Assembly (NCBI GenBank): GCA_947172415.1
Contig: OX359197.1
Location: forward strand, 7,193,673 to 7,257,672
DNA: 64,000 nt
Reading direction: 5' to 3'
Source of the DNA: Chondrosia reniformis
Taxonomy: Eukaryota; Porifera; Demospongiae; Chondrillida; Chondrillidae
Under the pieces are notes generated by a model that was not told the DNA's origin, ran no database searches, and saw only the letters and a program-made list of their open reading frames with translations. Below, piece by piece: positions 2,861 through 49,611 of the stretch; positions within the stretch are counted from its first letter, which is position 1, and every line of letters begins with the position of its first letter. Made by a program: the position numbers and the translations under genes.

Positions 2861-5163
2861 TCAAAATAGTCCAGCGTCCTTTTTCAGTGAAGTCTGCTTC
2901 CAAGGAGGCAGAGATGAGAAGTCCGTCCGTGACATTTTAAACACGTTCTACATAAGGCACATACAATTATGTTTTGCTATGCAGACAAATAACAAATACT
3001 AAATTAGTGTACATTAAGCCAAGTATGACACTGGTAGGAGAAGGGACACATGGAATCCACCAAGTATTTACCTTAAAGTCCTCATCTCCAAGGTAGGTTT
3101 CTAATTTCTTTGGATCAACTCCCTCAGGGAGAGGTTTCTTTTTCAGCTCAGCCAGCGAGTATCTGTCTCTGCTCAGCTTCTTTAGCTCCTCTGAAGCATC
3201 TGATCGATGAGGACTCTTGATGATCACAAAAGGTCTGTTAGCCTCTGCCACCTTCTTATCACTCTCCCAGGATGGAAAGAGACCGGTGAACCGCTGGTGT
3301 TCAAAACCAGCAGAGACAACATAAACATGAGGCTCCACAATGCGACCAGTAGCTACACACAGGAAGACCAATTAATCATATCAATATATTAGGATTCAAA
3401 AGCTTATAGATGATGATTGAGAATGATTACCAATGGTTTGATTATCGCTTCATAGATTTTAACTGATAATTACGTTACATGTTATATTTATAAGCACAAC
3501 AAAATATTATTTACTTATTGAGAGCAGTCATTAGTTAGGAAGGCAAATGATACAATATTACTATTAACTTAGAAGGCAAATGGCCTAACATTAAGTTTTT
3601 TTATGAACTAAGAGAGTTAATTGCACTCAGCTGTGCAGAGGCTATGATGATAAGCACATAATCACTGGAAATGTATTACACCAAACCAGCCAAGTGACAT
3701 AAGCCATTTATGTTCACTGATATCAGTAAAATGTTAATAAAATCTCAGATGTCAAATCAAGTGTACTCACCCTTGGAGTAGTTGACGGCAGTCTCCAGTG
3801 CTAATTTTTTGTCTCTTATGAATCTCACTTGAGCATCTCCAGTAAACTGGTTCTTTTCTCTGAAACGTGGATCCGACTGCACCAGCCACCAGCCAGACCA
3901 CACATAGATCTCATATTGAGCATCCAATAGGAAGAGAGCTGAGGGTGATGGGGCAGACAGACTGTAAACAGGAGACCATTACAGCACGGGGGAGTACCTG
4001 TGTTGTAGTGGCTTACCAGGTTGTTCACAAGAGTATAAGTCTGTTTGTAGGAAGGGAAAGGCTTCCGGCTCTCCTGTCCTGCAAGGATAGAGGACCTCTG
4101 TTGGGAGGAACTCTCCCGTAGACTCCACACTTGGAGCCAATTACACTATCTAGTTATATAGCACTGTACAGTTGGGATGCTACACCAACTCACTCTTAGC
4201 AGTAGTTGGGTTCTTTGTATTTGTCACTTTAGCTGTTGTTTGTGTGGATGGAGTGACTTTAGCTGTTGACACGTCAGTTGGTTCTTTGGAAACTGCACTG
4301 TCTTCACAACTTGAAGACATGGACGATTGAGAATGTCTCTTCGAAGCATTCCCTTTCTTGTTGGATAACTTGACTTTGTGTGGAAAAGATTTAAGAGTAT
4401 TCTGTGATTTAGTGTTACTTGTCTCTGTGGACATGTGCTTTAGCTTCTTGGGTTTAGAAGTGACTTCAACTTCAGTTGTATGTTTTCTCTTTTTTCCTTT
4501 TGACTGGTCACATTGAACAACAGTGCATTTGACTCTAACACACAAAAGAACTACAAACGTACAACATTCTTAAATAGGAACTGTATGACTGAAGGTATAT
4601 AATATAGGGTATGGCAGGTAATCTTATTTAGACTGGGAAGGCTATTATTACTGGACTACTATTAAGGCACCAGTGATAATGAGATATCTTACATTCCTAG
4701 CTTCACCATTTAATACAACACTAATACCAAATATTACCTGTGGATGTACTGTATTGGTCCTTAAGACATGTTTAGTATACATCACTTATATCATTAGTTG
4801 TGGTACTACACAACATCAGAAAGTATATCTATAATGTCAATGTTAGGTACAACCTACTATAGACATACTGCAAAGCATTGCTCTTCGCTCGTATGTCAGT
4901 GTGCACATATGAAATGGACCAACATACCGAATTGTGTCGTTATCCTTTAGCAGATGAATATCTTCTTGAGGAAGCAGCGCACAGTCGTCCATTGTGAGGT
5001 CCAGTTTGACGCCACGCAGATCTTCAAAGAACCTCTTCTTGATGGCGCCACACAGATCAGCAATGACGGAACAGGATGTCAGATTCTTGAGAAACCAAAC
5101 GAACTGTGGACAAGCAGGAGGAGGGTTGACGAACAATAACTTCAACCTTACCGAGTCGGCCAT
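2861..5163 (-). CDS. Coilin N-terminus::supervillin C-terminus fusion, copy A (intact)
   Basis: Predicted six-exon gene: 5163-4928, 4534-4194, 4097-4017, 3938-3771, 3352-3072, 2947-2861, total 1194 nt (397 residues plus stop). Intron phases are 2, 1, 1, 1 and 0, all GT-AG. Residues 1-85 match the coilin N-terminal ubiquitin-like domain (VRLKLLF, PPPACPQF, VIADLCGAI, LLKDNDTIRVK). Residues 86-192 are a Lys/Ser/Thr-rich linker with a likely nuclear signal (KGKKRK). From about 195 the sequence matches the end of supervillin: FPFLQTDLYS, QPALFLLD, YEIYVWSGWW, FTGLFPSWE. A villin headpiece fills about 333-397 (LPEGVDPKKLETYL, LPPWKQTSLKK, ending AGLF). Coilin's RG box and Tudor-like domain and most of supervillin are absent. 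Family knowledge: the coilin domain self-associates in Cajal bodies, and headpieces often bind F-actin. Whether the fusion does either is unknown. Only 88 bp separate it from the T2 stop. Confidence 0.75.
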
Positions 5164-5251: not shown

Positions 5252-7461
5252 TCAGAGTACTAGTACAACAATTCTCTTGTTTCCATAGTCAGCAATATAT
5301 AGATTTCCTTCATCACTGATAGCAAGACTATAAGGATGGTCCAAGCCAAGATTATCAACTTCACTAACACACTGTCCATCTGGTCTGAATATGGAGATTT
5401 TGTTAGCATAACATGATGCAGCTATTGTGTGTCCATCACTTGTGACTGCTATACCAGTGGGGTACTTGACAATGTCTTCACCAAACTGTCGGATGTACTG
5501 TCCATCCTGAGAATGTACTTTGATGCAATGATTCTTATGGTCAGTGATGTACACTAATCCATCTGGTGATATACAGAGCTGCCAGGGAAATGTAAAGCAA
5601 CCTGCTCCACTGCCATATGAACCAAAGCATCTTAGGAACTGACCATTCTCTGTAAATACAGATATTCTATGATTGCCATGGTCTGCTATAAAAAGGTGTC
5701 CCTCCTCATTGACTGCCACTCCTGTAGGACTACTTAATTGACCTTGCTTTGACCCTTGACCTCCAAACTGTCTTACTAGTTGACCAGTTGGAGTGTAGAT
5801 CTTGATAACATGGTTGATATAGTCACCAATGACAATGTTACCAGATTTGCTGAAAGTTATCCCATTGACATAGCCACAATCATGTCTAAATCTTCTTCCA
5901 ATTTGACCTGCCCCGTTAATAACAAGGATTTCTTCGGTGTTATCATTTGCAGCATACAACATTCCATCTGATCCACAAGCTACTGCATAGCATGCTCCAC
6001 CAATTTTAATCTCTTTTAGGATTTTGCTCATCTTCTTAATATCCAATGGCTTAGCAACCTTCACCTCTACTGGACTGCCCACTACATGTGGTGACCTCCA
6101 ATGGTCACACTCAGCATACATTCGAGTGATGGAACACTCTTAAAGTGTACCTCATATGTGCCATCTCTCTTGTCTGTTACCTTACCTCTCAGAGGAACAC
6201 CTGCTGTCACAGGACAAAGGACAGCCAACACCTTTTCTCCTCCTCTGCACTCATTGCCTCTCTCATCTCTTGTGGTGACTTTGAAGGAAAATTCTTTCTT
6301 CTTCTGTATGTGAACAAAGGCAGCACCATCTTTGTTCTTCTCCAACCCTCTAATACTGCAGTTTGGTGGATGTGCCTGCAAGCAGACTCCTCCAAATGAA
6401 GACAATGTCTTCTCTGTTTGGGATTGCTTGGAAGAGATAAACTGGACAGAGGGGTGAATGTAGGAAGATGGCTGAGGAGAATGCCCAGTAAGTTCATACA
6501 CTCGTTTGACCACCATCTTGGTCAAGTAAAGCTGTTCTTCTCTTCTTCCATTTGAAAAGATGTCTTCTGAATTGGAAAGAAACTCCTCCCATTTCTTCAT
6601 TTTAACTTGAAGCACTTTTTTCTGCTTGACAAGAGCTTTTCTTCCACTTTCTTCCGTTTTCCTCACTTCACCAACAAGACTATCACATCTTCTAGTTACC
6701 ATGGCAATTAGCTGTTCCTTCATTGCAAGGATCTCTCCTACAGCATCAGCGGACTGCTGTTGGAGACTAGCTTCACTGGCCTCCACTTCCTGAAGGGCAT
6801 TGCTCAGTGCCTTTGTCTGTCCCCTGGCAGACAGCACACACTGTGTCAGAGTGCTCCTGTTTAGCTCTCCCAGTTTGTCATTGATGAAGGACACACTGTG
6901 AGTCTTGTGGCCACCAACAGAATGACATATGGCACAGATCATCTGTTGACAGTCGTGACAGTATAGCTTCTTCTTTTCATTGTGTTCTGAGCATTGGAAA
7001 ATATCTTCTTTTGTAGAGCCACCTTCTAAGGTTTCATTAATGGATTGGATTTGATGCCTCTTGAGCATTTTCTTTGATCTGTGAAGATCTACACACTCTT
7101 GGCAAATAAAGAAATCACAGTCTGTGCAGTAGCTCACGGCTGCCCTCTTCTCTTCGTGGTCCTCTTGACAGACCACTCCTTCCTTCTGATACTGACTGCT
7201 CACTGTCTTCCTCAGAGCAAAGGGATGGCTTGGAAGACCACCGGGAGGGATGGAGAACACTTCATCACAGATCTCACAGGTCACTCCTTGTTGGAGCATC
7301 TTCTCCTGACACTCCACCTTCTCACACAAGGCAAGGGAGTGCAGACAAGGTAGACATTTAAGCTCTTCTACTCTCACTTCACAACTGACACAAGAGAGAC
7401 TGAGATTAGTTGATGGAAAAGAAGAATTAGAAGTGGATGGAACCTCTGGAAGCTCAGCCAT
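5252..7461 (-). pseudogene. TRIM-NHL copy T2, frameshifted before the NHL domain
   Basis: The frame opens at 7461 and runs 459 codons through RING, B-boxes, coiled coil and most of the filamin repeat. It then stops at 6082 directly after GGHHM. A 2-bp insertion near 6086-6092 (the run reads cactacatgtggtg where other copies read cactacgtggtg) causes the break. The last filamin strand and all six NHL blades continue in another frame down to 5252. All other hallmarks are kept, so the lesion is recent. A RING/B-box/filamin-only protein could still be made and might act as a dominant partner through the coiled coil; that is speculation. Blade loops in the displaced part read GDYINHV and ADHGNHRI. 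Confidence 0.85.
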
Positions 7462-7934
7462 TTTATTTGGTATTCTTGGGATCGTGTGACTTTGAAATGA
7501 GGAAGGAACTAACTAGTTTCTATGTAAACAGTCTAAACTGTAAAATATGCACTAGTTATATATAGATGTGTGAAAATGTATATATAAATAGCAAGTGTAT
7601 ATTTGGCTTTGTAAATTTCAGTATCTAGAAAGTATTTTCACTGAATTCATTTAGTTAGTTTTCAACTCCATACACTGATAGCAATAAAAACATTATCCAT
7701 CTCACAGACGCCAGCAACCTATTTCTATTTGAGGTGATCTCTCTATCTATGGGTTAGGGCTCGGAGAAGGTCTCCCTATTAATCCACTTCATGGGTTCTC
7801 ACTATATACGGCCTGTATCTGCAGTTGAACAGATAAACAGAATACTGTACTCCCTTCTGATACAAGAAACATGCAAAATCAAATTATACTATAATCTGTA
7901 CAATAATTAATATAACAAAAGTGCATTCAGTCCA
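7462..7934 (-). promoter_or_regulatory. Upstream region of T2 / 3' flank of copy B
   Basis: This 473-bp gap has no ORF of note. The E-box near the T2 start is changed to a gtgtgac form (7484-7490). The shared intergenic block lies at about 7732-7850. Confidence 0.45.
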
Positions 7935-10229
7935 TCAAAATAGTCCAGCGTCCTTTTTCAGTGAAGTCTGCTTCCAAGGAGGCAGAGATGAGAAGTCCGT
8001 CCGAGACATTTTAAACACGTTCTACATAAGGCACATACAATTATGTTTTGCTATGCAGACAAATAACAAAATACTAAATTAGTATACATTAAGCCAAGTA
8101 TGACACTGGTAGGAGAAGGGACACATGGAATCCACCAAGTATTTACCTTAAAGTCCTCATCTCCAAGGTAGGTTTCTAATTTCTTTGGATCAACTCCCTC
8201 GGGGAGAGGTTTCTTTTTCAGCTCAGCCAGCGAGTATCTGTCTCTGCTCAGCTTCTTCAGCTCCTCTGAAGCATCTGATCGATGAGGACTCTTGATGATC
8301 ACAAAAGGTCTGTTAGCCTCGGCCACCTTCTTATCACTCTCCCAGGATGGAAAGAGATTGGTGAACCGCTGGTGTTCAAAACCAGCAGAGACAACGTAAA
8401 CATGAGGCTCCACAATGCGACCAGTAGCTACACACAGGAAGACCAATTAATCATATCAATATATTAGGATTCAAAAGTTTATAGATGATGATTGAGAATG
8501 ATTACCAATGGTTTGATTATCGCTTCATAGATTTTAACTGATAATTACGTTACATGTTATATTTGTAAGCACAACAAAATATTATTTATTTATTGAGAGC
8601 AGTAATTAGATAGGAAGGCAAATGATCCAATATTAAACATTTATGAACTAAAGAAGATAATTGCACTCAGCTGTGCAGAGGCTATGATGATAAGCACATA
8701 ATCACTGGAAATGTATTGCACCAAACCAGCCAAGTGACATAAGCCATTTATGTTCACTGATATCAGTAAAATGTAATAAAATCTAAGATGCCAAATCAAG
8801 TGTACTCACCCTTGGAGTAGCTGTCGGCAGTCTCCAGTGATAATCTTTTGTCTCTTATGAATCTCACTTGAGCATCTCCAGTAAACTGGTTCTTTTCTCT
8901 GAAACGTGGATCCGACTGCACCGGCCACCAGCCAGACCACACATAGATCTCATATTGAGTGCCCAATAGGAAGAGAGCTGAGGGTGATGGGGCAGACAGA
9001 CTGTAAACAGGAGACCATTACAGCACGGGGGAGTACCTGTGTTGTAGTGGCTTACCAGGTTGTTCACAAGAGTATAAGTCTGTTTGTAGGAAGGGAAAGG
9101 CTTCCAGCTCTCCTGTCCTGCAAGGATAGAGGACCTCTGTTGGAAGGAACTCTCCCGTAGACTCCACACTTGGAGCCAATTACACTATCTAGTTATATAG
9201 CACTGTACAGTTGGGATGCTACACCAACTCACTCTTAGCAGTAGTTGGGTTCTTTGTATTTGTCACTTTAGCTGTTGTCTGTGTGGATGGAGTGACTTTA
9301 GCTGTTGTTTGTGTGGATGGAGTGACTTTAGCTGTTGTTTGTGTGGATGGAGTGACTTTAGCTGTTGTTTGTGTGGATGGAGTGAGTTTAGCTGTTGACA
9401 CGTTAGTTGGTTCTTTGGAAACTGCACTGTCTTCACAACTTGAAGAACTGGATGATTGAGAATGTCTCTTCGAAGCATTTCCTTTCTTGTTGGATAACTT
9501 GACTTTGTGTGGAGAAGATTGAAGAGTCTTCTGAGATTTAGTGTTACTTGTCTCTGTGGACATGTGTTTCGGCTTCTTGGGTTTAGAAGTGACTTCAACT
9601 TCTTCAGTTGTATTTTTTCTCTTTTTTTCCTTTTGACTGGTCACATTGAACAACAGTGCATTTGACTCTAACACACAAAAGAACTACAAACGTACAAAAT
9701 TTTTAAATAGGAACCGTGTGACTGAAGGTATATAATATAGGGTATGGCAGGTAATCTTATTTAGACTGGGAAGGCTATTATTACTGGACTACTATTAAGG
9801 CACCAGTGATAATGAAATATCTATACATTCCTAGCTTCACCATTTAATACAACCAAATATTACCTGTAGATGTACTGTATTGGTCCTTAAGACATGTTTA
9901 GTGACATCACTTATATCATTAGTTGTGGTACTACACAACATCAGAAAGTATATCTATAATGTCAATGTCAGGTACAACCTCTGAATAGATATACTGCAAA
10001 GCATTGCTCTTCGCTCGTATGTCAGTGTGCACATATGAAATGGACCAACATACCGAATTGTGTCGTTATCCTTTAGCAGATGAATGTCTTCTTGAGGAAG
10101 CAGCGCACAGTCGTCCATTGTGAGGTCCAGTTTGACGCCACGCAGATCTTCAAAGAACCTCTTCTTGATGGCGCCACACAGATCAGCAATGACGAAACAG
10201 GATGTCAGATTCATGAGAAACCAAACGAA
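7935..10229 (-). pseudogene. Coilin-supervillin copy B, 5' end lost and exon 2 frameshifted
   Basis: Exons 2-6 keep their splice sites (9667-9233, 9136-9056, 8977-8810, 8427-8147, 8021-7935). Exon 1 survives only as 10229-10054: the first codons, including the start ATG, are missing and replaced by the palindrome-rich element at 10235-10773. The next in-frame ATG (10214) would lose the first third of the coilin domain. Exon 2 has one extra base in an A-run (about 9625 on the plus strand), which shifts the frame. It also has the longest Thr/Lys repeat, four 30-bp units. The supervillin exons show no lesion, so decay is confined to the coilin half. Confidence 0.8.
9265..9384. repeat. 30-bp coding minisatellite, four units
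   Basis: Four near-identical 30-bp units (plus strand starting actttagctgttg) in exon 2 of copy B. On the minus strand each encodes ten residues (KVTPSTQTTA). Copy number differs between array copies: one in A, C, F, G, H, J and K; two in D and E; three in I; four here. The unit length keeps the reading frame. Confidence 0.9.
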
Positions 10230-10234
10230 ACAGC

Positions 10235-10773
10235 CAGTGTCACAGGATATTTTATCCCCCGTGTATTTTATCCGCCCGGATAGTATAAACTATCCGGGCG
10301 GATAAACGAAACTAGGAAATTTTATCATACCCTAGGATAATTTATCCTATACTCTACGATTTAAGCGTATCATCATGAAATCCTTTAGATACATAAGAAG
10401 CAACCTTGGGCTGAAAAGGGTATAGGTTTTAGGATTTTCAGCCATCCTCACGGCTAACGATAAGCAAGTATTGAGACAGCAGGCCGAGAAATTTGATGAA
10501 CGAAACGGTATTTCGAAAAACCGTGAAGAATGACACGGGAGAGGTGGTGATGCAGCGAGTGATCACAAGCTTATTATTATTCATGTATATAAATGATTAG
10601 GATAAATTATCCTAGTATATTTCATCCCCCAGATAAAATATCCTAGGATATACTATCCTAGAGTAGGATATAATTTCCTAGGGTAGGATAAATTTTCCTA
10701 GGATAAAGTATCCCAGGGGGATATTTTATCCGGGGGATAAAATTTAGGGGGGATAGAATTTGCTGTGACACCG
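10235..10773. mobile_element. Palindrome-rich MITE-like element
   Basis: About 540 bp of sequence foreign to the array. The ends form an imperfect inverted repeat: the left end reads cagtgtcacag followed by attttatccccc, and the right end reads as its complement (ctgtgacaccg at 10763-10773). Inside, 10267-10283 and 10290-10306 form a 17-bp perfect hairpin with a six-base loop. A dozen or so copies of ggata or its complement follow, many as cctagg-centred palindromes. There is no transposase ORF. I could not define a target-site duplication because host sequence is lost at the left junction. Confidence 0.65.
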
Positions 10774-13080: not shown

Positions 13081-13613
13081 TTTATTTGTTAATGGGGATC
13101 ATATGACTTTAAAATGAGGGAGGAGCTAACTATTTTCTATTAAACAGTCCAAATTTATATGTGCAAAGACGTTTGTGAGTTATAAATTGCAATTGCATAT
13201 TTGGCTTTGTACATTTCAGTATCTAACAACTAAAGTACTTTCACTGAATTCATTCAGTTACTTAGGTTTTCAACTTAAAGAATGGAAATTAGAAAAGTTC
13301 AATGACAGCCTCCTTTCTAGTGTCAGCAATATATAAAGAGTGTCTCCATCACTGATATCAATACCATATATAGGACCATTCAATCTCAGGCCAGAATCTA
13401 TTGTATTTAGAGGTGGTCTCTCTATCTATGGGTTAGGGCTCGGAGAAGGTCTCCCTATCAATCCACTACATGGGTTCTCACTATATACGACCTGTATCTG
13501 CAGTTGAACAGATAAACAGAATACTGTACTCCTTTCTGATACAAGAAACATGCAAAATCAAATTATACTATAATATGTACAATAATTAATATAACAAAAG
13601 TGCATTCAGTCCA
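13081..13613 (-). promoter_or_regulatory. Upstream region of T3 / 3' flank of copy C
   Basis: This 533-bp gap has no gene. The E-box near the start has changed to catatg (about 13099-13104). The shared intergenic block lies at about 13412-13520. Confidence 0.45.
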
Positions 13614-15870
13614 TCAAAATAGTCCAGCGTCCTTTTTCAGTGAAGTCTGCTTCCAAGGAGGCAGAGATGAGAAGTCCGTCCGTGACATTTTAAACACGTT
13701 CTACATAAGGCACATACAATTATGTTTTGCTATGAAGACAAATAACAAATACTAAATTAGTATACATTAAGCCAAGTATGACACTGGCAGGAGAAGGGAC
13801 ACATGGAATCCACCAAGTATTTACCTTAAAGTCCTCATCTCCAAGGTAGGTTTCTAATTTCTTTGGATCAACTCCCTCGGGGAGAGGTTTCTTTTTCAGC
13901 TCAGCCAGCGAGTATCTGTCTCTGCTCAGCTTCTTCAGCTCCTCTGAAGCATCTGATCGATGAGGACTCTTGATGATCACAAAAGGTCTGTTAGCCTCGG
14001 TCACCTTCTTATCACTCTCCCAGGATGGAAAGAGATTGGTGAACCGCTGGTGTTCAAAACCAGCAGACACAACATAAACATGAGGCTCCACAATGCGACC
14101 ATTAGCTACACACAGGAAGACCAATTAATCATATCAATACAGAAGGATTCAAAAGCTTATAGATGATGATTGAGAATGATTACCAATGGTTTAATTATTG
14201 CTTCAGTGATTCATTGATGATTACGTTACATGTTATATTTGTAAGCACAACAAAATATTATTTATTTATTGAGAGCAGTCATTAGTTAGGAAGGCAAATG
14301 GTCTAACATTAAGTTTTTTATGAACTAAGGAAGTTAATTGCACTCAGCTGTGCAGAGGCTATGATGATAAGCACATAATCACTGGAAATGTATTACACCA
14401 AACCAGCCAAGTGATATAAGCCATTTATGTTCACTGATATCAGTAAATCTCAGATGTCAAATCAAGTGTACTCACCCTTGGAGTAGTTGACGGCAGTCTC
14501 CAGTGCTAATCTTTTGTCTCTTATGAATCTCACTTGAGCATCTCCAGTAAACTGGTTCTTTTCTCTGAAACGTGGATCCGACTGCACCGGCCACCAGCCA
14601 GACCACACATAGATCTCATATTGAGCATCCAATAGGAAGAGAGCTGAGGGTGATGGGGCAGGCAGACTGTAAACAGGAGACCATTACAGCATGAGGGAGT
14701 GCCTGTGTTGTAGTGGCTTACCAGGTTGTTCACAAGAGTATAAGTCTGTTTGTAGGAAGGGAAAGGCTTCCGGCTCTCCTGTCCTGCAAGGATAGAGGAC
14801 CTCTGTTGGGAGGAACTCTCCCGTAGACTCCACACTTGGAGCCAATTACATTATCTACTTATATAGCACTGTACAGTTGGGATGCTACACCAACTCACTC
14901 TTAGCAGTAGTTGGGTTCTTTGTAATTGTCAATTTAGCTGTTGTTTGTGTGGATGGAGTGACTTTAGCTGTTGACATGTTAGTTGGTTCTTTGGAAACTG
15001 CACTGTCTTCACAACTTAAAGAACTGGACGATTGAGAATGTCTCTTCGAAGCATTCCCTTTCTTGTTGGATAACTTGACTTTGTGTGGAGAAGATTGAAG
15101 AGTCTTTTGAGATTTAGTGTTACTTGTCTCTGTGGACATGTGCTTCAGCTTCTTGGGTTTAGAAGTGACTTCAACTTCAGTTGTATATTTTCTCTTTTTT
15201 CCTTTTGACTGGTCACATTGAACAACAGTGCATTTGACTCTAACACACAAAAGAACTACAAACGTACAACATTCTTAAATAGGAACTGTGTGACTGAAGG
15301 TATATAATATAGGGTATGGCAGGTAATCTTATTTAGACTGGGAAGGCTATTATTAATGGACTACTATTAAGGCACCAGTGATAATGAAATATCTATACAT
15401 TCCTAGCTTCACCATTTAATACAACACTAATACCAAATATTACCTGTGGACATACTGTATTGGTCCTTAAGACATGTTTAGTGACATCACTTATATCATT
15501 AGTTGTGGTACTACACAACATCAGAAAGTATATCTATAATGTCAATGTTAGGTATAACCTACTGAATAGACATACTGCAAAGCATTGCTCTTCGTTCATA
15601 TGTCAGTGTGCACATATGAAATGGACCAACATACCGAATTGTGTCGTTATCCTTTAGCAGATGAATGTCTTCTTGAGGAAGCAGCGCACAGTCGTCCATT
15701 GTGAGGTCCAGTTTGACGCCACCCAGATCTTCAAAGAACCTCTTCTTGATGGCGCCACACAGATCAGCAATGACGGAACAGGATGTCAGATTCATGAGAA
15801 ACCAAACGAACTGCGGACAAGCAGGAGGAGGGTTGACGAAGAATAACTTCAACCTTATGGAGTCGGCCAT
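13614..15870 (-). CDS. Coilin-supervillin fusion, copy C (intact)
   Basis: Six exons: 15870-15635, 15239-14899, 14802-14722, 14643-14476, 14105-13825, 13700-13614. Lengths and phases equal those of copy A, giving 397 residues. Coilin-domain differences are V5 to I and a Gly in DLGGV where most copies have DLRGV. The linker ends KLTITKNPTTAK. Exon 5 begins ANGRIVEPHV where other copies have ATGRIVEPHV. All splice sites are canonical. The ATG at 15870 is chosen because it aligns with MADS in every other copy; an in-frame ATG farther upstream (15912) lies in spacer sequence that is not conserved as coding. The T4 stop is 108 bp upstream. No lesion is seen, so this is one of four candidates for a working gene. 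Confidence 0.75.
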
Positions 15871-18207: not shown

Positions 18208-18687
18208 GTGACTTTGAAATTAGGGAGGAGCTAAATATATCAAACTATTCACTATGTAAATTGTCCAAATTTATATATAAACAGTCTAAATGTACAATAT
18301 GCACTAGTTATAAATATGACTGTACGTATGTGAAAATATATAAATTGCAATTGCATATTTGGCTTTGTAAATTTCAGTATCTAGAAACTAAAGTACTTTC
18401 ACTGAGTTCTTTAGTTAAGTTTCAACTCCATAGTAATACCATTATCAATCTCACAGGCCAGAATCTATTGTATTTAGAGGTGGTCTCTCTATCTATGGGT
18501 TAGGGCTCGGAGAAGGTCTCCCTATTAATCCACTACGTGGGTTCTCACTATATACGACCTGTATCTGCAGTTGAACAGATAGACAGACTATACTATACTG
18601 TACTCCTTTCTGATACAAGAAACATGCAAAATCAAATTATACTATAATATGTACAATAATTAATATAACAAAAGTGCATTCAGTCCA
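18208..18687 (-). promoter_or_regulatory. Upstream region of T4 / 3' flank of copy D
   Basis: This 480-bp gap has no supported gene. The E-box tcatgtga is at 18204-18211, overlapping the region edge, and the shared block is at about 18479-18580. A short plus-strand ORF that enters this gap has no support. Confidence 0.45.
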
Positions 18688-20997
18688 TCAAAATAGTCCA
18701 GCGTCCTTTTTCAGTGAAGTCTGCTTCCAAGGAGGCAGAGATGAGAAGTCTGTCCGTGACATTTTAAACACATTCTACATAAGGTACATACAATTATGTT
18801 TTGCTATGCAGACAAATAACAAAATACTAAATTAGTATACATTAAGCCAAGTATGACACTGGCAGGAGAAGGGACACATGGAATCCACCAAGTATTTACC
18901 TTAAAGTCCTCATCTCCAAGGTAGGTTTCTAATTTCTTTGGATCAACTCCCTCGGGGAGAGGTTTCTTTTTCAGCTCAGCCAGCGAGTATCTGTCTCTGC
19001 TCAGCTTCTTCAGCTCCTCTGAAGCATCTGATCGATGAGGACTCTTGATGATCACAAAAGGTCTGTTAGCCTCGGCCACCTTCTTATCACTCTCCCAGGA
19101 TGGAAAGAGATTGGTGAACCGCTGGTGTTCAAAACCAGCAGACACAACATAAACATGAGGTTCCACAATGCGACCAGTAGCTACAAACAGGAAGACCAAT
19201 TAATCATATCAATACATAAGGATTCAAAAGTTTATAGATGATGATTGAGAATGTTTACCAATGGTTTGATTATCACTTCATAGATTTTAACTGATAATTA
19301 CGTTACATGTTATATTTGTAAGCACAACAAAATATTATTTATTTATTGAGAGCAGTCATTAGTTAGGAAGGCAAATGGTCTAACATTAAGTTTTTTATGA
19401 ACTAAGGAAGTTAATTGCACTCAGCTGTGCAGAGGCTATGATGATAAGCACATAATCACTGGAAATATATTACACCAAACCAGCCAAGTGACATAAGCCA
19501 TTCATGTTCACTGATATCAGTAAAATGTAAATAAAATCTCAGATGTCAAATCAAGTGTACTCACCCTTGGAGTAGTTGATGGCAGTCTCCAGTGCTAATC
19601 TTTTGTCTCTTATGAATCTCACTTGAGCATCTCCAGTAAACTGGTTCTTTTCTCTGAAACGTGGATCCGACTGCACCGGCCACCAGCCAGACCACACATA
19701 GATCTCATATTGAGCATCCAATAGGAAGAGAGCTGAGGGTGATGGAGCAGACAGACTGTAAACAGGAGACCATTACAGCAAGGGGGAGTACCTGTGTTGT
19801 AGTGGCTTACCAGGTTGTTCACAAGAGTATAAGTCTGTTTGTAGGAAGGGAAAGGCTTCCGGCTCTCCTGTCCTGCAAGGATAGAGGACCTCTGTTGGAA
19901 GGAACTCTCCCGTGGACTCCACACTTGGAGCCAATTACATTATCTAGTTATATAGCACTGTACAGTTGGGATGCTACACCAACTCACTCTTAGCAGTAGT
20001 CATGTTCTTTGTATTTGTCACTTTAGCTGTTGTTTGTGTGGATGGAGTGACTTTAGCTGTTGTTAGTGTGGATGGAGTGACTTTAGCTGTTGACATGTTA
20101 GTTGGTTCTTTGGAAACTGCACTGTCTTCACAACTTAAAGAACTGGAAGATTGAGAATGTCTCTTCGAAGCATTCCCTTTCTTGTTGGATAACTTGACTT
20201 TGTGTGGAGAAGATTGAAGAGTCTTCTGTGATTTAGTGTTACTTGTCTCTGTGGACATGTGCTTTGACTTCTTGGGTTTAGAAGTGACTTCAACTTCAGT
20301 TGTATTTCTTCTCTTTTTTCCTTTTGACTGATCACATTGAACAACAGTGCATTTGACTCTAACACACAAAAGAACTACAAACGTACAACATTCTTAAATA
20401 GGAACTGTGTGACTGAAGGTATATAATATAGGGTATGGCAGGTAATCTTATTTAGACTGGGAAGGCCATTATTACTGGACTACTATTAAGGCACCAGTGA
20501 TAATGAAATATCTATACATTCCTAGCTTCACCATTTAATATAACACTAATACCAAATATTACCTGTGGATATACTGTATTGGTCCTTAAGACATGTTTAG
20601 TATGCATCATTTAGTGACATCACTTATATCATTAGTTATGGTACTACACAACATCAGAAAGTATATCTATAATGTCAATGCTAGGTACAACTGTAGATAT
20701 ACTGCAAAGCATAGCTCTTCGTTCGTATGTCAGTGTGCACATATGAAATGGACCAACATACCGAATTGTGTCGTTATCCTTTAGCAGATGAATGTCCTCT
20801 TGAGGAAGCAGCGCACAGTCGTCCATTGTGAGGTCCAGTTTGACGCCACCCAGATCTTCAAAGAACCTCTTCTTGATGGCGCCACACAGATCAGCAATGA
20901 CGGAACAGGATGTCAGATTCATGAGAAACCAAACGAACTGCGGAGAAGCAGGAGGAGGGTTGCCGAACAATAACTTCAACCTTATGGAGTCGGCCAT
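18688..20997 (-). CDS. Coilin-supervillin fusion, copy D (intact)
   Basis: Six exons: 20997-20762, 20358-19988, 19891-19811, 19732-19565, 19180-18900, 18774-18688. The 371-bp exon 2 has one extra 30-bp repeat unit, giving 407 residues. The coilin domain reads LLFGNPPPASPQF, with Gly for Val and Ser for Cys at sites otherwise constant. Exon 2 ends KNMTTAK instead of KNPTTAK. All donors and acceptors are GT-AG, and the supervillin exons are open. Bases that change just upstream of exon 3 in this copy fall inside intron 2 in the model used here. The T5 stop is 118 bp upstream. Confidence 0.75.
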
Positions 20998-23323: not shown

Positions 23324-23886
23324 TTTGGAAATACATCATGTGACTTTGAAATTAGGGAGGAGCTAGCTATATCAAACTATTCGTTATGTAAACAGTCCAA
23401 ACTTACATTTATAATTTGGGTTGAACAGTAAATTTGGCAATGTAAATTTAAGTTTCTAGAAACTAAAGTACTTTCAATGAATTCATTTAGTGAGTTAGCA
23501 TGGTTTTCAACTTAAGAATGGAAATTAATAATTAATAGAAAAATTAATGATAGCCTCCTTCTAGTATATTAGACTGCCAAATTATACAACATATACAGTG
23601 TTACTATAGAGTGTCTCCATCACTGATAGCGATACCATATATAGGACCATTCAATCTCACAGGCCAGAATCTATTGTATTTAGAGGTGGTCTCTCTATCT
23701 ATGGGTTAGGGCTCGGAGAAGGTCTCCTTATTAATCCACTACATGGGTTCTCACTATATACGACCTGTATCTGCAGTGGAACAGATAGACAGAATACTGT
23801 ACTCCCTTCTGATACAAGAAACTTGCAAAATCAAATTATACTATAATATGTACAATAATTAATATAACAAAAGTGCATTCAGTCCA
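23324..23886 (-). promoter_or_regulatory. Upstream region of T5 / 3' flank of copy E
   Basis: This 563-bp gap has no gene. The E-box tcatgtga lies at about 23336-23343, slightly closer to the ATG than in other copies because a few bases are missing. The shared block is at about 23685-23790. Confidence 0.45.
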
Positions 23887-26170
23887 TCAAAATAGTCCAG
23901 TGTCCTTTTTCAGTGAAGTCTGCTTCCAAGGAGGCAGAGATGAGAAGTCCGTCCGTGACATTTTAAACACGTTCTACATAAGGTACATACAATTATGTTT
24001 TGCTATGCAGACAATAACAAATACTAAATTAGCATACATTAAGCCAAGTATGACACTGGTAGGAGAAGGGACACATGGAATCCACCAAGTATTTACCTTA
24101 AAGTCCTCATCTCCAAGGTAGGTTTCTAATTTCTTTGGATCAACTCCCTCGGGGAGAGGCTTCTTTTTCAGCTCAGCCAGTGAGTGTCTGTCTCTGCTCA
24201 GCTTCTTCAGCTCCTCTGAAGCATCTGATCGATGAGGACTCTTGATGATCACAAAAGGTCTGTTAGCCTCTGCCACCTTCTTATCACTCTCCCAGGATGG
24301 AAAGAGATTGGTGAACCGCTGGTGTTCAAAACCAGCAGACACAACATAAACATGAGGCTCCACAATGCGACCAGTAGCTACACACAGGAAGACCAATTAA
24401 TCATATCAATACATAAGGATTCAAAAGTTTATAGATGATGATTGAGAATGATTACCAATGGTTTGATTATCGCTTCATAGATTTTAACTGATAATTACGT
24501 TACATGTTATATTTATAAGCACAACAAAGTATTATTTATTTATTGAGAGCAGTCATTAGTTAGGAAGGCAAATGGTCTAACATTAAGTTTTTTATGAACT
24601 AAGGAAGTTAATTGCACTCAGCTGTGCAGAGGCTATGATCATAAGCACATAATCACTGGAAATGTATTACACCAAACCAGACAAGTGACATAAGCCACTT
24701 ATGTTCACTGATATCAGTAAAATGTTAATAAAATCTAAGATGTCAAATCAAGTGTACTCACCCTTGGAGTAGTTGACGGCAGTCTCCAGTGCTAATCTTT
24801 TGTCTCTTATGAATCTCACTTGAGCATCTCCAGTAAACTGGTTCTTTTCTCTGAAACGTGGATCCGACTGCACCGGCCCCCAGCCAGACCACACATAGAT
24901 CTCATATTGAGCATCCAATAGGAAGAGAGCTGAGGGTGATGGGGCAGACAGACTGTAAACAGGAGACCATTACAGCACGGGGGAGTACCTGTGTTGTAGC
25001 GGCTTACCAGGTTGTTCACAAGAGTATAAGTCTGTTTGCAGGGAGGGAAAGGCTTCCAGCTCTCCTGTCCTGCAAGGATAGAGGACCTCTGTTGGGAGGA
25101 ACTCTCCCGTAGACTCCACACTTGGAGCCAATTACATTATCTACTTATATAGCACTGTATAGTTGGGATGCTACACCAACTCACTCTTAGCAGTAGTTGG
25201 GTTCTTTGTATTTGTCACTTTAGCTGTTGTTAGTGTGGATGGAGTGACTTTAGCTGTTGTTAGTGTGGATGGAGTGACTTTAGCTGTTGACACGTTAGTT
25301 GGTTCTTTGGAAACTGCACTGTCTTCACAACTTGAAGAACTGGACGATTGAGAATGTCTCTTCAAAGCATTCCCTTTCTTGTTGGATAACTTGAGGAGAA
25401 GATTGAAGAGTCTTCTGTGATTTAGTGTTACTTGTCTCTGTGGACATGTGTTTTGGCTTCTTGGGTTTAGAAGTGACTTCAACTTCTTCAGTTGTATTTT
25501 TTCTCTTTTTTCCTTTTGACTGGTCACATTGAACAACAGTGCATTTGACTCTAAGAACTACAAACGTACAACATTCTTAAATAGGAACTGTGTGACTGAA
25601 GGTATATAATATAGGGTATGGCAGGTAATCTTATTTAGACTGGGAAGGCCATTATTACCGGACTACTATTAAGGCACAAGTGATAATGAAATATCTATTC
25701 ATTCCTAGCTTCACCATTTAATATAACACTAATACCAAATATTATCTGTGGATATACTGTATTGGTCCTTAAGACATATTTAGTGACATCACTTATATCA
25801 TTAGTTGTGGTACTACACAACATCAGAAAGTACATCTATAATGTCAATGTTAGGTACAACCTACTATAGATATACTGCAAAGCATAGCTCTTCGTTCGTA
25901 TGTCAGTGTGCACATATGAAATGGACCAACATACCGAATTGTGTCGTTATCCTTTAGCAGATGAATGTCTTCTTGAGGTAGCAGCGCACAGTCGTCCATT
26001 GTGAGGTCCAGTTTGACACTACGCAGATCTTCGAAGAACCTCTTCTTGATGGCGCCACACAGATCAGCAATGACGGAACAGGATGTCAGATTCATGAGAA
26101 ACCAAACGAACTGTGGACAAGCAGGAGGAGGGTTGACGAACAATAACTTCAACCTTACCGAGTCGGCCAT
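23887..26170 (-). pseudogene. Coilin-supervillin copy E, exon 2 frameshift
   Basis: Exons by alignment: 26170-25935, 25550-25185, 25088-25008, 24929-24762, 24377-24097, 23973-23887. All splice sites are present. Exon 2 lacks 8 bp near 25394, so the coilin frame from exon 1 goes out of phase in the middle of the linker and the supervillin part is not reached in frame. A 10-bp deletion beside the exon 2 acceptor (near 25551) leaves the terminal AG intact. The coilin domain itself and all supervillin exons are undamaged. In exon 5, Tyr before SLAEL is His. Two repeat units are present in exon 2. Confidence 0.75.
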
Positions 26171-28529: not shown

Positions 28530-29189
28530 GGGATCATGTGACTTTGAAATTAGGGAGGAGCTAAATATATCAAACTATTTGTTATGTAAACAGTCCAAAC
28601 TTACATTTATATATAATTTGAGTTGAACAGTAAATTGTCAATGTAAATTTATGTTTCTAGAAACTAAAGTACTTTCAATGAATTCATTTATTAGACTGCC
28701 AAATTATACAACATATATAGTGTTACTATAGAGTGTCTCCACCACTGATAGTGATACCATATATAGGACCATTCAATCTCACAGGCCACAATCTATTGTA
28801 TTTAGAGGTGGTCTCTCTATCTAATTAATAAAAAAAATAATTGATGATGATAGCCTCCTTCTAGTATATTAGACTGCCAAATTATACAACACATATACAG
28901 TGTTACTATAGAGTGTCTCCATCACTGATAGCAATACCATATATAGGACCATTCAATCTCCCTGGTCAGCAACCTATTATATTCAGAGGTGGTCTCTCTA
29001 TCTATGGGTTAGGGCTCGGAGAAGGTCTCCTTATTAATCCACTACATGGGTTCTCACTATATACGACCTGTATCTGCAGTTGAACAGATAGACAGAATAC
29101 TGTACTCCATTCTGATACAAGAAACATGCAAAATCAAATTATACTATAATATGTACAATAATTAATATAACAAAAGTGCATTCAGTCCA
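28530..29189 (-). promoter_or_regulatory. Upstream region of T6 with internal duplication / 3' flank of copy F
   Basis: This 660-bp gap has no gene. It is longer than its equivalents because a segment is duplicated: about 28691-28823 and about 28870-29002 both run from attagactgcc through accattcaatctc to the first ggtctctc of the shared block. The E-box tcatgtga is at about 28534-28541. Confidence 0.5.
28691..29002. repeat. Local duplication of about 133 bp
   Basis: Two diverged copies, about 28691-28823 and 28870-29002, separated by about 46 bp that include an A-run. Other units have only one copy of this segment, so the duplication arose inside this unit. Confidence 0.75.
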
Positions 29190-31525
29190 TCAAAATAGTC
29201 CAGCGTCCTTTTTCAGTGAAGTCTGCTTCCAAGGAGGCAGAGATGAGAAGTCCGTCCGTGACATTTTAAACACGTTCTACATAAGGCACATACAATTATG
29301 TTTTGCTATGCAGACAAATAACAAAATACTAAATTAGTATACATTAAGCCAAGTATGACACTGGTAGGAGAAGGGACACATGGAATCCACCAAGTATTTA
29401 CCTTAAAGTCCTCATCTCCAAGGTAGGTTTCTAATTTCTTTGGATCAACTCCCTCGGGGAGAGGCTTCTTTTTCAGCTCAGCCAGCGAGTATCTGTCTCT
29501 GCTCAGCTTCTTCAGCTCCTCTGAAGCATCTGATCGATGAGGACTCTTGATGATCACAAAAGGTCTGTTAGCCTCGGCCACCTTCTTATCACTCTCCCAG
29601 GATGGAAAGAGATTGGTAAACCGCTGGTGTTCAAAACCAGCAGAGACAACGTAAACATGAGGCTCCATAATGCGACCAGTAGCTACACACAGGAAGACCA
29701 ATTAATCATATCAATACATAAGGATTCAAAAGTTAATAGAAAGTTAATAGAATAAGGATTCCTTTTAAACGCTAAAAAGTCGAAGGATGTACCATCCCAA
29801 AGATAGATTCAAAAGTTAATAGACGATGATTGAGAATGATTACCAATGGTTTGATTATCGCTTCATAGATTTTAACTGATAATTACGTTACATGTTATAT
29901 TTGTAAGCACAACAAAATATTATTTATTTATTGAGAGCAGTCATTAGATAGGAAGGCAAATGATCCAATATTAAGCATTTATGAACTAGAGAAGTTAATT
30001 GCACTCAGCTGTACAGAGGCTATGATGATAAGCACATAATCACTGGAAATGTATTACACCAAACCAGCCAAGTGATATAAGCCATTTATGTTCACTGATA
30101 TCAGTAAAATGTAATAAAATCTCTGCTGTCAAATCAAGTGTACTCACCCTTGGAGTAGTTGACGGCAGTCTCCAGTGCTAATCTTTTGTCTCTTATGAAT
30201 CTCACTTGAGCATCTCCAGTAAACTGATTCTTTTCTCTGAAACGTGGATCCGACTGCACCGGCCACCAGCCAGACCACACATAGATCTCATATTGAGCGT
30301 CCAATAGGAAGAGAGCTGAGGGTGATGGGGCAGGCAGACTGTAAACAGGAGACCATTACAGCACGGGGGAGTACCTGTGTTGTAGTGGCTTACCAGGTTG
30401 TTCACAAGAGTATAAGTCTGTTTGTAGGAAGGGAAAGGCTTCCAGCTCTCCTGTCCTGCAAGGATAGAGGACCTCTGTTGGGAGGAACTCTCCCGTAGAC
30501 TCCACACTTGGAGCCAATTACATTATCTACTTATATAGCACTGTACAGTTGGGATGCTACACCAACTCACTCTTAGCAGTAGTTGGGTTCTTTGGATTTG
30601 TCACTTTAGCCGTTGTTTGTGTGGATGGAGTGACTTTAGCTGTTGACACGTTAGTTGGTTCTTTGGAAACTGCACTGTCTTCACAACTTGAAGAACTAGA
30701 CGATTGAGAATGTCTCTTCGAAGCATTTCCTTTCTTGTTGGATAACTTGACTTTGTGTGGAGAAGATTGAAGAGTCTTCTGAGATTTAGTGATACTTGTC
30801 TCTGTGGACATGTGCTTTGGCTTCTTGGGTTAAGAAGTGACTTCAACTTCAGTTGTATTTTTTATCTTTTTTCCTTTTGACTGGTCACATTGAACAACAG
30901 TGCATTTGACTCTAACACACAAAAGTACTACAAACGTACAACATTCTTAAATAGGAACTGTATGACTGAAGGTATATAATATAGGGTATGGCAGGTAATC
31001 TTATTTAGACTGGGAAGGCCATTATTACTGGACTACTATTAAGGCACCAGTGATAATGAAATATCTATATATTCCTAGCTTCACCATTTAATACAACACT
31101 AATACCAAATATTATCTGTGGATATACTGTATTGGTCCTTAAGACATGTTTAGTGACATCACTTATATCATTAGTTGTGGTACTACACAACATCAGAAAG
31201 TATATCTATAATGTCAATGTTAGGAACAACCTACTGAATAGACATACTGCAAAGCATAGCTCTTCGTTCGTATGTCAGTGTGCACATATGAAATGGACCA
31301 ACATACCGAATTGTGTCGTTATCCTTTAGCAGATGAATGTCTTCTTGAGGAAGCAGCGCACAGTCGTCCATTGTGAGGTCCAGTTTGACGCCACGCAGAT
31401 CTTCTTCTTGATGGCGCCACACAGATCAGCAATGACGGAACAGGATGTCAGATTCATGAGAAACCAAACGAACTGTGGACAAGCAGGAGGAGGGTTGATA
31501 ACTTCAACCTTACCGAGTCGGCCAT
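29190..31525 (-). pseudogene. Coilin-supervillin copy F, multiply broken
   Basis: Exons by alignment: 31525-31307, 30911-30571, 30474-30394, 30315-30148, 29682-29402, 29276-29190. Exon 1 lacks 10 bp near 31402 and 7 bp near 31498, destroying the coilin frame. Exon 2 carries a nonsense change near 30831: a Lys codon becomes TAA where the plus strand reads gggttaagaag instead of gggtttagaag. Intron 4 has about 80 bp of extra sequence near 29740-29825 that repeats part of itself (attcaaaagttaatag). The supervillin exons are open and the splice sites are intact, so the damage is concentrated in the coilin half, as in B, H and I. Confidence 0.85.
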
Positions 31526-31643
31526 TTTATCTATAGACAATTGAACTACGTAGATCTAAATATCTTTTGCGAAAATTCAATTAACATTAAATAATTTTGA
31601 AGTTACGAAGCAGTAATCTATAAAGCATATCTCGTTATATCAG

Positions 31644-33971: not shown

Positions 33972-34713
33972 GGATATAGTTTAGTTTCATTTAGTAAGTT
34001 TCTTTTCAATTTCAAGAATGAGAATAATAGAAAATTTCCTGGTTTCGAGTGTCGACATCAGCATTATGAAGAAGAGTGTCTCCCTATCACTGATCTATTA
34101 TATGTGCATGCATATGCATATATAGTTGTTGGCTGATTTTGAGTGGAACCGCAGGAAGCTCAGCCATTTTGGAAATACTTGGGATCTGAAATTAGGGAGG
34201 AGCTCAATATATCAAGCTATTCATTATGTAAACAGTCCAAACCAATATTGTGTATGACAATGTAAATTTTAGTTTCTAGAAGCTAAAATACTATCAATTA
34301 ATAATTCATTTAGTGAGTTAGCATGGTTTTCAACTTAAGAATGGAAATTAATAATTAATAGAAAAGTTAATGATAGTCTCCTTTCTATTATATTAGACTG
34401 CCAAATTATACAACACATATACAGTGTTACTATAGAGTGTCTCCATCACTGATAGCAATACCATATATAGGACCATTCAATCTCCCGGGCCATCAACCTA
34501 TTTCTATTTGAGGTGGTCTCTCTATCTATGGGTTAGGGCTCGGAGAAGGTCTCCCTATTAATCCACTACATGGCTTCTCACTATATACGACCTGTATCTG
34601 CAGTTGAACAGATAAACAGAATACTGTACTCCCTTCTGATACAAGAAACATGCAAAATCAAATTATATTATAATATGTACAATAATTAATATAACAAAAG
34701 TGCATTCAGTCCA
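33972..34713 (-). promoter_or_regulatory. Upstream region of T7 / 3' flank of copy G
   Basis: This 742-bp gap has no intact gene. A relic TRIM start lies at about 34145-34167 (ATG at 34167, about eight codons of homology). The alternative leader continues upstream of T7, and the shared block is at about 34511-34620. The layout matches the regions upstream of T1 and T11. Confidence 0.5.
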
Positions 34714-36988
34714 TCAAAATAGTCCAGCGTCCTTTTTCAGTGAAGTCTGCTTCCAAGGAGGCAGAGATGAGAAGTCCGTCCATGACATTTTAAACACGTT
34801 CTACATAAGGCACATACAATTATGTTTTGCTATGCAGACAAATAACAAATACTAAATTAGTATACATTAAGCCAAGTATGACACTGGTAGGAGAAGGGAC
34901 ACATGGAATCCACCAAGTATTTACCTTAAAGTCCTCATCTCCAAGGTAGGTTTCTAATTTCTTTGGATCAACTCCCTTGGGGAGAGGCTTCTTTTTCAGC
35001 TCAACCAGCGAGTATCTGTCTCTGCTCAGCTTCTTCAGCTCCTCTGAAGCATCTGATCGATGAGGACTCTTGATAATCACAAAGGTCTGTTAGCCTCTGC
35101 CACCTTCTTATCACTCTCCCAGGATGGAAAGAGATTGGTGAACCGCTGGTGTTCAAAACCAGCAGACACAACGTAAACATGAGGCTCCACAATGCGACCA
35201 GTAGCTACACACAGGAAGACCAATTAATTATATCAATACATAAGAATTAAAAAGTTTATAGATGATAATTGAGAATGATTACCAATGGTTTGATTATCGC
35301 TTCATAGATTTTAACTGATAATTATGTTACATGTTACATATTTGTAAGCACAACAAAATATTATTTATTTATTGAGAGCAGTAATTAGTTAGGAAGGCAA
35401 ATGATCCAATATTAAGCATTTATGAACTAAAGAAGTTAATTGCACTCAGCTGTACAGAGGCTATGATGATAAGCACATAATCACTGGAAATGTATTACAC
35501 CAAACCAGACAAGTGACATAAGCCATTCATGTTCACTGATATCAGTAAAATGTTAATAAAATCTCAGATGTCAAATCAAGTGTACTCACCCTTGGAGTAG
35601 TTGACGGCAGTCTCCAGTGCTAATCTTTTGTCTCTTATGAATCTCACTTGAGCATCTCCAGTAAACTGGTTCTTTTCTCTGAAACGTGGATCCGACTGCA
35701 CCGGCCACCAGCCAGACCACACATAGATCTCATATTGAGCGTCCAATAGGAAGAGAGCTGAGGGTGATGGGGCAGGCAGACTGTAAACAGGAGACCATTA
35801 CAGCACGGGGGAGTACCTGTGTTGTAGTGGCTTACCAGGTTGTTCACAAGAGTATAAGTCTGTTTGTAGGAAGGGAAAGGCTTCCGGCTCTCCTGTCCTG
35901 CAAGGATAGAGGACCTCTGTTGGGAGGAACTCTCCCGTAGACTCCACACTTGGAGCCAATTACATTATCTAGTTATATAGCACTGTACAGTTGGGATGCT
36001 ACACCAACTCACTCTTAGCAGTAGTTGGGTTCTTTGTATTTGTCACTTTAGCTGTTGTTAGTGTGGATGGAGTGACTTTAGCTGTTGACATGTCATAACA
36101 CGTCAGTTGGTTCTTTGGAAACTGCACTGTCTTCACAACTTGAAGAAATGGACGATTGAGAATGTCTCTTTGAAGCATTCCCTTTCTTGTTGGATAACTT
36201 GACTTTGTGTGGAGAAGATTGAAGAGTCTTCTGAGATTTAGTGGTACTTGTCTCTGTGGACATGTGCTTTTTTTGGGTTTAGAAGTGACTTCAACTTCAG
36301 TTGTATTTTTTCTCTTTTTTCCTTTTGACTGGTCACATTGAACAACAGTGCATTTGACTCTAACACACAAAAGAACTACAAACGTACAACATTCTTAAAT
36401 AGGAACTGTGTGACTGAAGGTATATAATATAGGGTATGGCAGGTAATCTTATTTAGACTGGGAAGGCCATTATTACTGGACTACTATTAAGGCACCAGTG
36501 ATAATGAGATATCTATACATTCCTAGCTTCACCATTTAATACAACACTAATACCAAATATTACCTGTGGATATACTGTATTGGCCCTTAAGACATATTTA
36601 GTGACATCACTTATATCATTAGTTGTGGTACTACACAACATCAGAAAGTATATCTATAATGTCAATGTTAGGTACAACCTACTATAGACATACTGCAAAG
36701 TATAGCTCTTCGTTCGTATGTCAGTGTGCACATATGAAATGGACCAACATACCGAATTGTGTCGTTATCCTTTAGCAGATGAATGTCTTCTTGAGGGAGC
36801 AGCGCACAGTCGTCCATTGTGAGGTCCAGTTTGACGCCACGCAGATCTTCAAAGAACCTCTTCTTGATGGCGCCACACAGATCAGCAATGACGGAACAGG
36901 ATGTCAGATTCATGAGAAACCAAACGAACTGTGGACAAGCAGGAGGAGGGTTGACGAACAATAACTTCAACCTTACCGAGTCGGCCAT
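34714..36988 (-). pseudogene. Coilin-supervillin copy G, exon 5 frameshift
   Basis: Exons by alignment: 36988-36753, 36359-36013, 35916-35836, 35757-35590, 35204-34925, 34800-34714. Exon 5 lacks one base in an A-run near 35083 (cacaaaggtc for cacaaaaggtc), which breaks the frame before the headpiece. Exon 2 has a 4-bp deletion near 36271 and a 10-bp insertion near 36095. Together these restore the frame (net +6), so most of the linker is read in a different frame without a stop. The coilin domain in exon 1 is intact. The 4-bp deletion is shared with copy I. Confidence 0.8.
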
Positions 36989-39331: not shown

Positions 39332-39780
39332 GTGACTTTGAAATGAGGAAGGAGTTAACTAGTTTCTATGTAAACAGTCTAAACTGTAAAATATGTAAAA
39401 TATGTACTATATAGATGTGTGAAAATGTATATATAGATTGCAAGTGCATATTTGGCTTTGTAAATTTCAGTATCTAGGAACTAAAGTACTTTCACTGAAT
39501 TCATTTAGTTTTCAACTCCATCACTGATAGCAATAATACCATTATCAATCTCACAGGCCACAATCTATTGTATTTGAGGTGGTCTCTCTATCTATGGGTT
39601 AGGGCTCAGAAAAGGTCTCCCTATTAATCCACTACATGGGTTCTCACTATATACGACCTGTATCTGCAGTTGAACAGATAGACAGATATACTATACTCCC
39701 TTCTGATACAAGAAACATGCAAAATCAAATTATACTATAATATGTACAATAATTAATATAACAAAAGTGCATTCAGTCCA
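39332..39780 (-). promoter_or_regulatory. Upstream region of T8 / 3' flank of copy H
   Basis: This 449-bp gap has no gene. The E-box tcatgtga is at about 39328-39335 on the region edge. The shared block is at about 39578-39690, with one base change in its ggctcgg motif (ggctcag). Confidence 0.45.
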
Positions 39781-42048: not shown

Positions 42049-42054
42049 TTTATT

Positions 42055-44478: not shown

Positions 44479-44616
44479 CACTTGCATCCGTGTATAAATT
44501 TGTAACTTGCACTGTGTAGTACTTGATTGTATTTAAACAAGCATAATATATAACACTCCTTATTCCTACACATGGACAATTGCAAGTAAAAAATGAATAA
44601 AAACATAAGAAGAGAA

Positions 44617-46810: not shown

Positions 46811-46926
46811 ACCTTAGACAATCTAAATATCCATTGCGAAAATTCAATTAACATTAAAAATTTGGAAGTTATTACAAAGCAATAATCTATAAAGCATCGT
46901 TACATCAGTATATCTCGTTATATCAG

Positions 46927-49158: not shown

Positions 49159-49611
49159 GTGACTTTGAAATGAGGAGCTATAACTAGTTTCTATGTATAC
49201 AGTCTAAACTGTAAAATATGTAAAATATGTACTAGTTATAGATGTGTGAAAATGTATATATAGATTGCAAGTGCATATTTGGCTTTGTAAATTTCAGTAT
49301 CTAGAAACTAAAGTATTTTCACTGAATTCATTTAGTTAGTTTTCAACTCCATCACTGATAGCAATAATACCATTATCGATCTCACAGGCCAGAATTTATT
49401 GTATTTTGAGGTGGTCTCTCTATCTATGGGTTAGGGCTCGGAGAAGGTCTCTCTATTAATCCACTACATTGGTTCTCACTATATACCACCTGTATCTGCA
49501 GTTGAACAGATAGACAGAATACTATACTCATTTCTGATACAAGAAACATGCAAAATCAAATTATACTATAATATGTACAATAATTAATATAACAAAAGTG
49601 CATTCAGTCCA
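49159..49611 (-). promoter_or_regulatory. Upstream region of T9 / 3' flank of copy I
   Basis: This 453-bp gap has no gene. The E-box tcatgtga is at about 49155-49162, the shared block at about 49411-49520, with a few private changes such as ggtctctctatt. Confidence 0.45.

Follow-up and report, generated by a model that had tools for sequence, protein, structure and literature searches.

Six minus-strand exons in the stretch of Chondrosia reniformis DNA analysed here (64,000 nucleotides, C9:7193673-7257672, called the window) join the start of a coilin to the end of a supervillin, and the arrangement recurs along the window. The locus raises the question of whether a new fusion gene has been amplified or whether the fusion accompanies the amplification of another gene. 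Judged from sequence alone, the chimera is a real chimeric gene that arose at a junction, in the manner of Sdic, and its origin is well supported; it is probably mainly a passenger, and a fusion protein is possible. We consider it likely that the fusion was born at the junction of a tandem duplication between the flanking parental genes, that the repeated unit has been kept mainly for a B-box/filamin/NHL gene and that the chimera largely rides as a passenger. The genome searched comprised 117.4 Mb in 15 contigs, and the counts from these genome searches are lower bounds; the genome note describes the assembly, odChoReni1.1, as 117.37 Mb in 14 chromosomes plus the mitochondrial genome (PMC12181767).

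A single reading frame joins coilin and supervillin domains

Joining the six exons (Table 1) resulted in a single frame of 397 codons plus stop in which all intron phases match, as the earlier note had described. Its assignment of exons 1-2 to a coilin N-terminal domain was borne out by Pfam, where Coilin_N matched residues 5-125 with 72.1 bits (cut-off 32.9). The profile and structure searches that it had suggested also agreed with exons 3-6 being a supervillin tail that matches the parental gene: VHP matched residues 362-397 with 63.0 bits (cut-off 27) and the top solved-structure match of the tail was the supervillin headpiece 2k6m, followed by villins, the gelsolin-like repeat staying under its Pfam cut-off (15.2 bits vs 21). 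The chimera resembles coilin in its Coilin_N domain and differs from it in having no Pfam match to the C-terminal Tudor domain, unlike the parental coilin, which shows Coilin_N and Tudor_Coilin (Tudor 53.6 bits). It resembles supervillin in its supervillin-type headpiece (Pfam, PDB) and differs from it in being without supervillin sequence before the last gelsolin-like repeat; the earlier repeats are present in the parent. The translations of the supervillin part contain no in-frame ATG before exon 6, so that its translation would need an upstream start.

Table 1. Coordinates of the chimera, its joint, its further copies and the NHL genes in the window
Feature	Position	Strand	Basis
Chimera exon 1: coilin N-terminal domain, ATG at 5163	4928..5163	-	frame, phase, Pfam Coilin_N
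Chimera exon 2: rest of coilin N domain plus basic linker, followed by the coilin intron-2 donor GTGAGT	4194..4534	-	
Coilin intron 2 remnant	4131..4193	-	63-nt match to complete coilin gene, C9:7159655-7159594
Tandem-duplication breakpoint: 8 bases unlike either parent	4123..4130	-	comparison with both parents
5' part of truncated supervillin exon (STGEFLPTE in parent), holds acceptor-like ttcctcccaacag	4098..4122	-	parent codes through
Chimera exon 3: supervillin VLYPC...EQP	4017..4097	-	frame, parent comparison
Chimera exon 4: part of last gelsolin-like repeat	3771..3938	-	frame, structure match, parent comparison
Chimera exon 5: linker and headpiece start	3072..3352	-	frame, structure match, parent comparison
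Chimera exon 6: end of villin headpiece and stop	2861..2947	-	Pfam VHP; PDB 2k6m
Chimera copy 2, broken: no ATG at aligned start, exon 2 frameshift	7932..10289	-	
Chimera copy 3, open frame	13611..15870	-	
Chimera copy 4, open frame	18685..20997	-	
Chimera copy 5, broken in coilin part	23884..26170	-	
Chimera copy 6, broken: exon 1 net loss of 17 bases	29187..31525	-	
Chimera copy 7, broken: exon 5 lacks one base	34711..36988	-	
Chimera copy 8, broken by stops in both the coilin and the supervillin part	39778..42048	-	
Chimera copy 9, broken: exon 2 frameshift	49609..51937	-	
Chimera copy 10, open frame	54781..56894	-	
Chimera copy 11, open frame; donor 5 is AT, not GT	60062..62287	-	
NHL gene of first unit, frameshift-broken (459 + 289 aa)	5252..7461	-	
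Open NHL genes, first five	10873-13080, 15979-18207, 21116-23323, 26289-28511, 31644-33971		
Open NHL genes, remaining four	37100-39331, 46927-49158, 52030-54252, 57013-59343		

The breakpoint lies within a coilin intron and inside a supervillin exon

The last coilin-derived base is 4131, within coilin intron 2, and the first supervillin-derived base is 4122, inside a supervillin exon. The breakpoint bases are identical in 21 of the 22 chr9 copies, copy 7255959 having a 10-base loss there. The coilin intron-2 donor GTGAGT was kept in 22/22 chr9 copies, and in the parent coilin this donor, in this phase, likewise yields an open frame. Since the breakpoint is inside a supervillin exon, the proposed acceptor is coding sequence in parental supervillin; the parental exon reads DSRPMEFTPRLWQLSSSTGEFLPTEVLYPC... 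and has its own acceptor upstream, and the alignment with Paramuricea clavata supervillin spans the place of the breakpoint in this exon. The acceptor ttcctcccaacag that the earlier note had placed before 4097 does give the in-phase frame, but it cannot be an ancestral intron end because it is coding in the parental gene. Another AG, at 4114-4113, is also in phase. A competing AG lies farther upstream, at 4131-4130, and splicing there would give a shifted frame.

Coilin intron 2 has lost its own acceptor to the breakpoint, which would suit coilin-side transcripts that retain the intron and end after SELV, leaving the supervillin tail untranslated, and in the window copy the coilin frame of the unspliced remnant does stop at an in-frame TAG (4182-4180). 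Such a truncated coilin would be compatible with the chimera being a passenger. We regard it as possible, though rather doubtful, as the supervillin frame is protected from frameshifts (see below), which would be needless in untranslated sequence.

Both parental genes flank a head-to-tail array

A total of 22 junctions were read on chr9, head to tail and all on the minus strand, at C9:7171-7292 kb; a 23rd is indicated by genome search matches only (C9:7277.9-7278.3 kb). The full-length parental genes, for which the earlier note had proposed a search, were found one at each end of this array. A long supervillin gene lies at about C9:7304.5-7295.9 kb on the minus strand (the sequence examined begins within the gene, its 5' start being outside), and a genome search placed gelsolin-repeat exons next to the last tail copy, at C9:7297.4-7300.8 kb. 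At the other end a complete coilin gene, predicted to encode 507 aa, occupies about C9:7160.7-7158.0 kb, also on the minus strand. The gene order read was supervillin then NHL gene at one array end and NHL gene then coilin at the other, all on the minus strand, and the repeat unit consists of a supervillin tail, a B-box/filamin/NHL gene and a coilin head. With units in this order, every place where two units meet has a supervillin tail following a coilin head. The earlier note had taken the fusion gene itself to be what was amplified; this has to be revised, as a complete B-box/filamin/NHL gene belongs to the amplified unit too, and the chimera is formed where units meet.

From this arrangement we infer an ancestral order of supervillin, B-box/filamin/NHL gene and coilin. 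The segment first duplicated in tandem, and later expanded, would have extended from mid-exon in supervillin across the NHL gene into coilin intron 2. In the sequence as read, each joint sets coilin exons 1-2 and the intron-2 donor before a supervillin tail (part of exon 3 and exons 4-6), and an in-phase AG within the truncated supervillin exon permits the single 397-aa frame. Expression of the fusion would require transcription from the coilin side, use of the in-phase AG and translation; the protein, if made, would set the domain by which coilin self-associates on a villin-type headpiece. Retention and multiplication of the unit would be due mainly to the NHL gene, with the chimera largely riding along, open in about half of the copies read.

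Eleven amplified copies had been claimed for the window, and the junction was indeed found there 11 times; only five of these copies, however, can encode the fusion. On chr9 as a whole the fusion frame is open in 10/22 copies. An open frame together with every GT/AG site was kept in nine of the 22 chr9 copies and in four of the 11 in the window. One chr9 copy, 7268433, is without exon 1 in the piece examined and is broken elsewhere.

Genome searches with the two query parts gave further matches to units on chr3 and chr7. On chr3 the sequence showed three junctions of this type, and a fourth is indicated by genome search matches. In two chr7 units coilin exon 3 is joined to supervillin exon 4, out of frame. 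Direct derivation of the chr7 and chr9 joints from one another was ruled out because each holds parental sequence that the other lacks; later deletions within one longer ancestral joint may underlie both. Out-of-frame joints at other points of the same two genes, such as those on chr7, are expected if such joints are by-products.

The B-box/filamin/NHL gene is the likelier target of selection

The third gene of the unit is a single exon of ~740 aa with B-box, filamin and NHL domains (Pfam on one copy, 52030-54252), and it is open in 9 of the 11 copies whose stop falls in the window, although it is longer than the chimera. When 15 copies were translated from one reference start, stops were seen in six; four of these (7204546, 7214789, 7219962 and 7282070) have open frames of 735-742 aa when started at their own ATG, and two are broken. 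Among 13 open chr9 copies dN/dS was 0.33 in the B-box part (dN 0.042, dS 0.126) and 1.04 in the NHL propeller (dN 0.080, dS 0.076), a contrast that is partly due to the difference in dS. The tally of 15 copies, broken ones included, gave omega values of 0.46 for the B-box part and 1.12 for the propeller. Sites with 4-7 residue states fell mostly in the NHL part (19/23), and the variable sites there showed no significant blade-period pattern (best lag 47, permutation p = 0.16). The variability of the propeller possibly suits a diversifying recognition surface, or else a relaxed one. The NHL gene is a likelier target of selection than the chimera. Tandemly expanded TRIM genes have been described in animals (PMC3503706).

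Constraint on the chimera and its possible function

The constraint on the chimera was estimated from distinct in-frame variants of the 22 chr9 copies. The omega value was 0.45 in the supervillin part (42 N, 37 S, p = 0.0003) and 0.69 in the coilin part (77 N, 42 S, p = 0.04), with 0.81-1.98 in ten controls (two introns in three frames, and wrong frames). When only shared variants were taken, one intron control dropped to 0.54 (p = 0.08), and the singletons by themselves gave values of 0.68 (supervillin) and 0.83 (coilin) that were not significant. Small frameshifting indels, counted in 21 chr9 copies (7268433 was dropped), numbered two in 617 bp of supervillin exons vs 35 in 1067 bp of introns (p = 1e-5), or two vs 21 when only singletons were taken (p = 0.003). 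This pattern suggests that the chimera is not simply decaying, and it may mean real use of a product.

A functional new gene would be one whose fusion is transcribed, spliced from 4194 to 4097, translated and selected, for example for tethering coilin assemblies to actin. We hold this to be unlikely. The open frame in 10 of the 22 chr9 copies argues for it, but the coilin part is weakly constrained, with 11 frameshifting indels in 577 bp of its exons against the 35 of the introns (p = 0.07) in addition to its omega of 0.69. The reading-frame constraint is strong in the supervillin part, yet the supervillin tails stay in frame, far better than introns, also behind broken coilin heads. Intact copies had a borderline lower supervillin N:S than broken ones when all deviations were taken (23:47 vs 41:43, p = 0.05), but the ratio did not differ for singletons (13:7 vs 18:11); there was likewise no difference for distinct supervillin variants (20:21 vs 29:26) or for all deviations in the coilin part (67:44 vs 70:66, p = 0.20). 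The upstream start that the supervillin part would need speaks for a functional fusion, and the upstream AG at 4131-4130, with its shift of frame, against it. A protein search for an existing fusion gave six relatives, none with more than 55% query coverage (of the three with names, two are supervillins and one is a hypothetical protein), although unspliced predictions are poorly seen by such a search. The literature search, which covered open-access papers, found none on coilin, supervillin and fusion together.

The parental genes, moreover, can serve as donors of gene conversion. In trees of 20 chr9 tails and 21 chr9 heads, to which the chr3 and chr7 copies were added, the parents fell among the copies in both cases; supports toward the parent were 0.62 for coilin and, apart from one low node (0.11), 0.79-0.97 for supervillin. 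This placement may fit conversion from the parents as an alternative cause of the frame constraint. Selection on the fusion was not accepted as demonstrated, because tails are in frame behind broken heads, singletons are non-significant and the parents lie among the copies.

The headpiece of the villin family binds actin. The N-terminal domain of coilin has been reported to self-assemble (PMC9556525). We think it quite improbable that the sponge makes some ten variants of a new protein in which a self-assembling coilin N-terminal domain is set on an actin-binding headpiece, with a one-step origin through a breakpoint that turned exonic supervillin sequence into a splice acceptor.

Similarity among units

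The segment C9:7173657-7178383 is 99.96% identical to C9:7221362-7226088 (window 27690-32416) at an offset of 47,705 bases, and the blocks on either side have nearly the same offset and are 97.7-97.9% identical. The 99.96% stretch may represent a recent multi-unit duplication or an assembly effect. Although this block would suit copies that are assembly artefacts or unpurged haplotypes, that explanation is very improbable given the mean unit difference of 3.2% in supervillin tails and 3.5% in coilin heads, the presence of the same junction on chr3 and the HiFi long reads, Hi-C and manual curation reported in the genome note (PMC12181767).

Comparison with known chimeric genes

The reading that we prefer, a junction-born chimera carried along with the NHL gene, makes the locus a further case of a known mode of gene birth, that of Sdic, and not a new kind. 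As described in the sources cited, Sdic of Drosophila melanogaster is a chimera of two neighbouring genes that is tandemly repeated between its intact parents (PMC3395120; PMC7475035), as the sponge chimera is; gene conversion among copies, which the trees may suggest for the sponge, counts as a further likeness. The two differ in that the Sdic coding sequence comes from one parent only, whereas both halves of the sponge chimera would code. Whereas a transcript of the sponge chimera is hypothetical, Sdic has established expression and an effect on sperm competition. A further difference is the third gene present in each sponge unit, which most window copies retain in open form. For 15 lines of Drosophila yakuba, 76 chimeric genes that arose by tandem duplication were reported (PMC5460883), and the mechanism is the same, breakpoints inside two genes joining a 5' part to a 3' part. 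The D. yakuba cases are population variants that occur at lower frequency than duplications of whole genes (PMC5460883); in the sponge 22 chr9 copies were read.

The array is a clear case of tandem duplication repeatedly making an in-frame chimera of two unrelated genes, and both parents and a second, out-of-frame joint are available for comparison. If the protein is made, a nuclear-body scaffold domain is joined to a cytoskeletal domain; if it is not, the amplification of one gene drags along plausible fusion frames that predictors may report as proteins.

Additional sequences in and outside the array

One copy has an insertion of ~4.9 kb (window 42054-46923) that separates its NHL stop from the coilin start; it contains a 323-codon open stretch, possibly of mobile-element origin, and a repeated peptide pattern near its end. 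The genome searches also matched a supervillin piece at C7:2850 kb and, weakly, headpieces on C10 and C11. At C7:2849440-2853499, supervillin exon 3 and intron 3 continue into the interior of an NHL gene; the adjoining sequence reads N, and no supervillin tail exons were found within the readable part. Three coilin N-like fragments with stops lie on the opposite strand at C9:1579480-1595346 (1.58-1.60 Mb).
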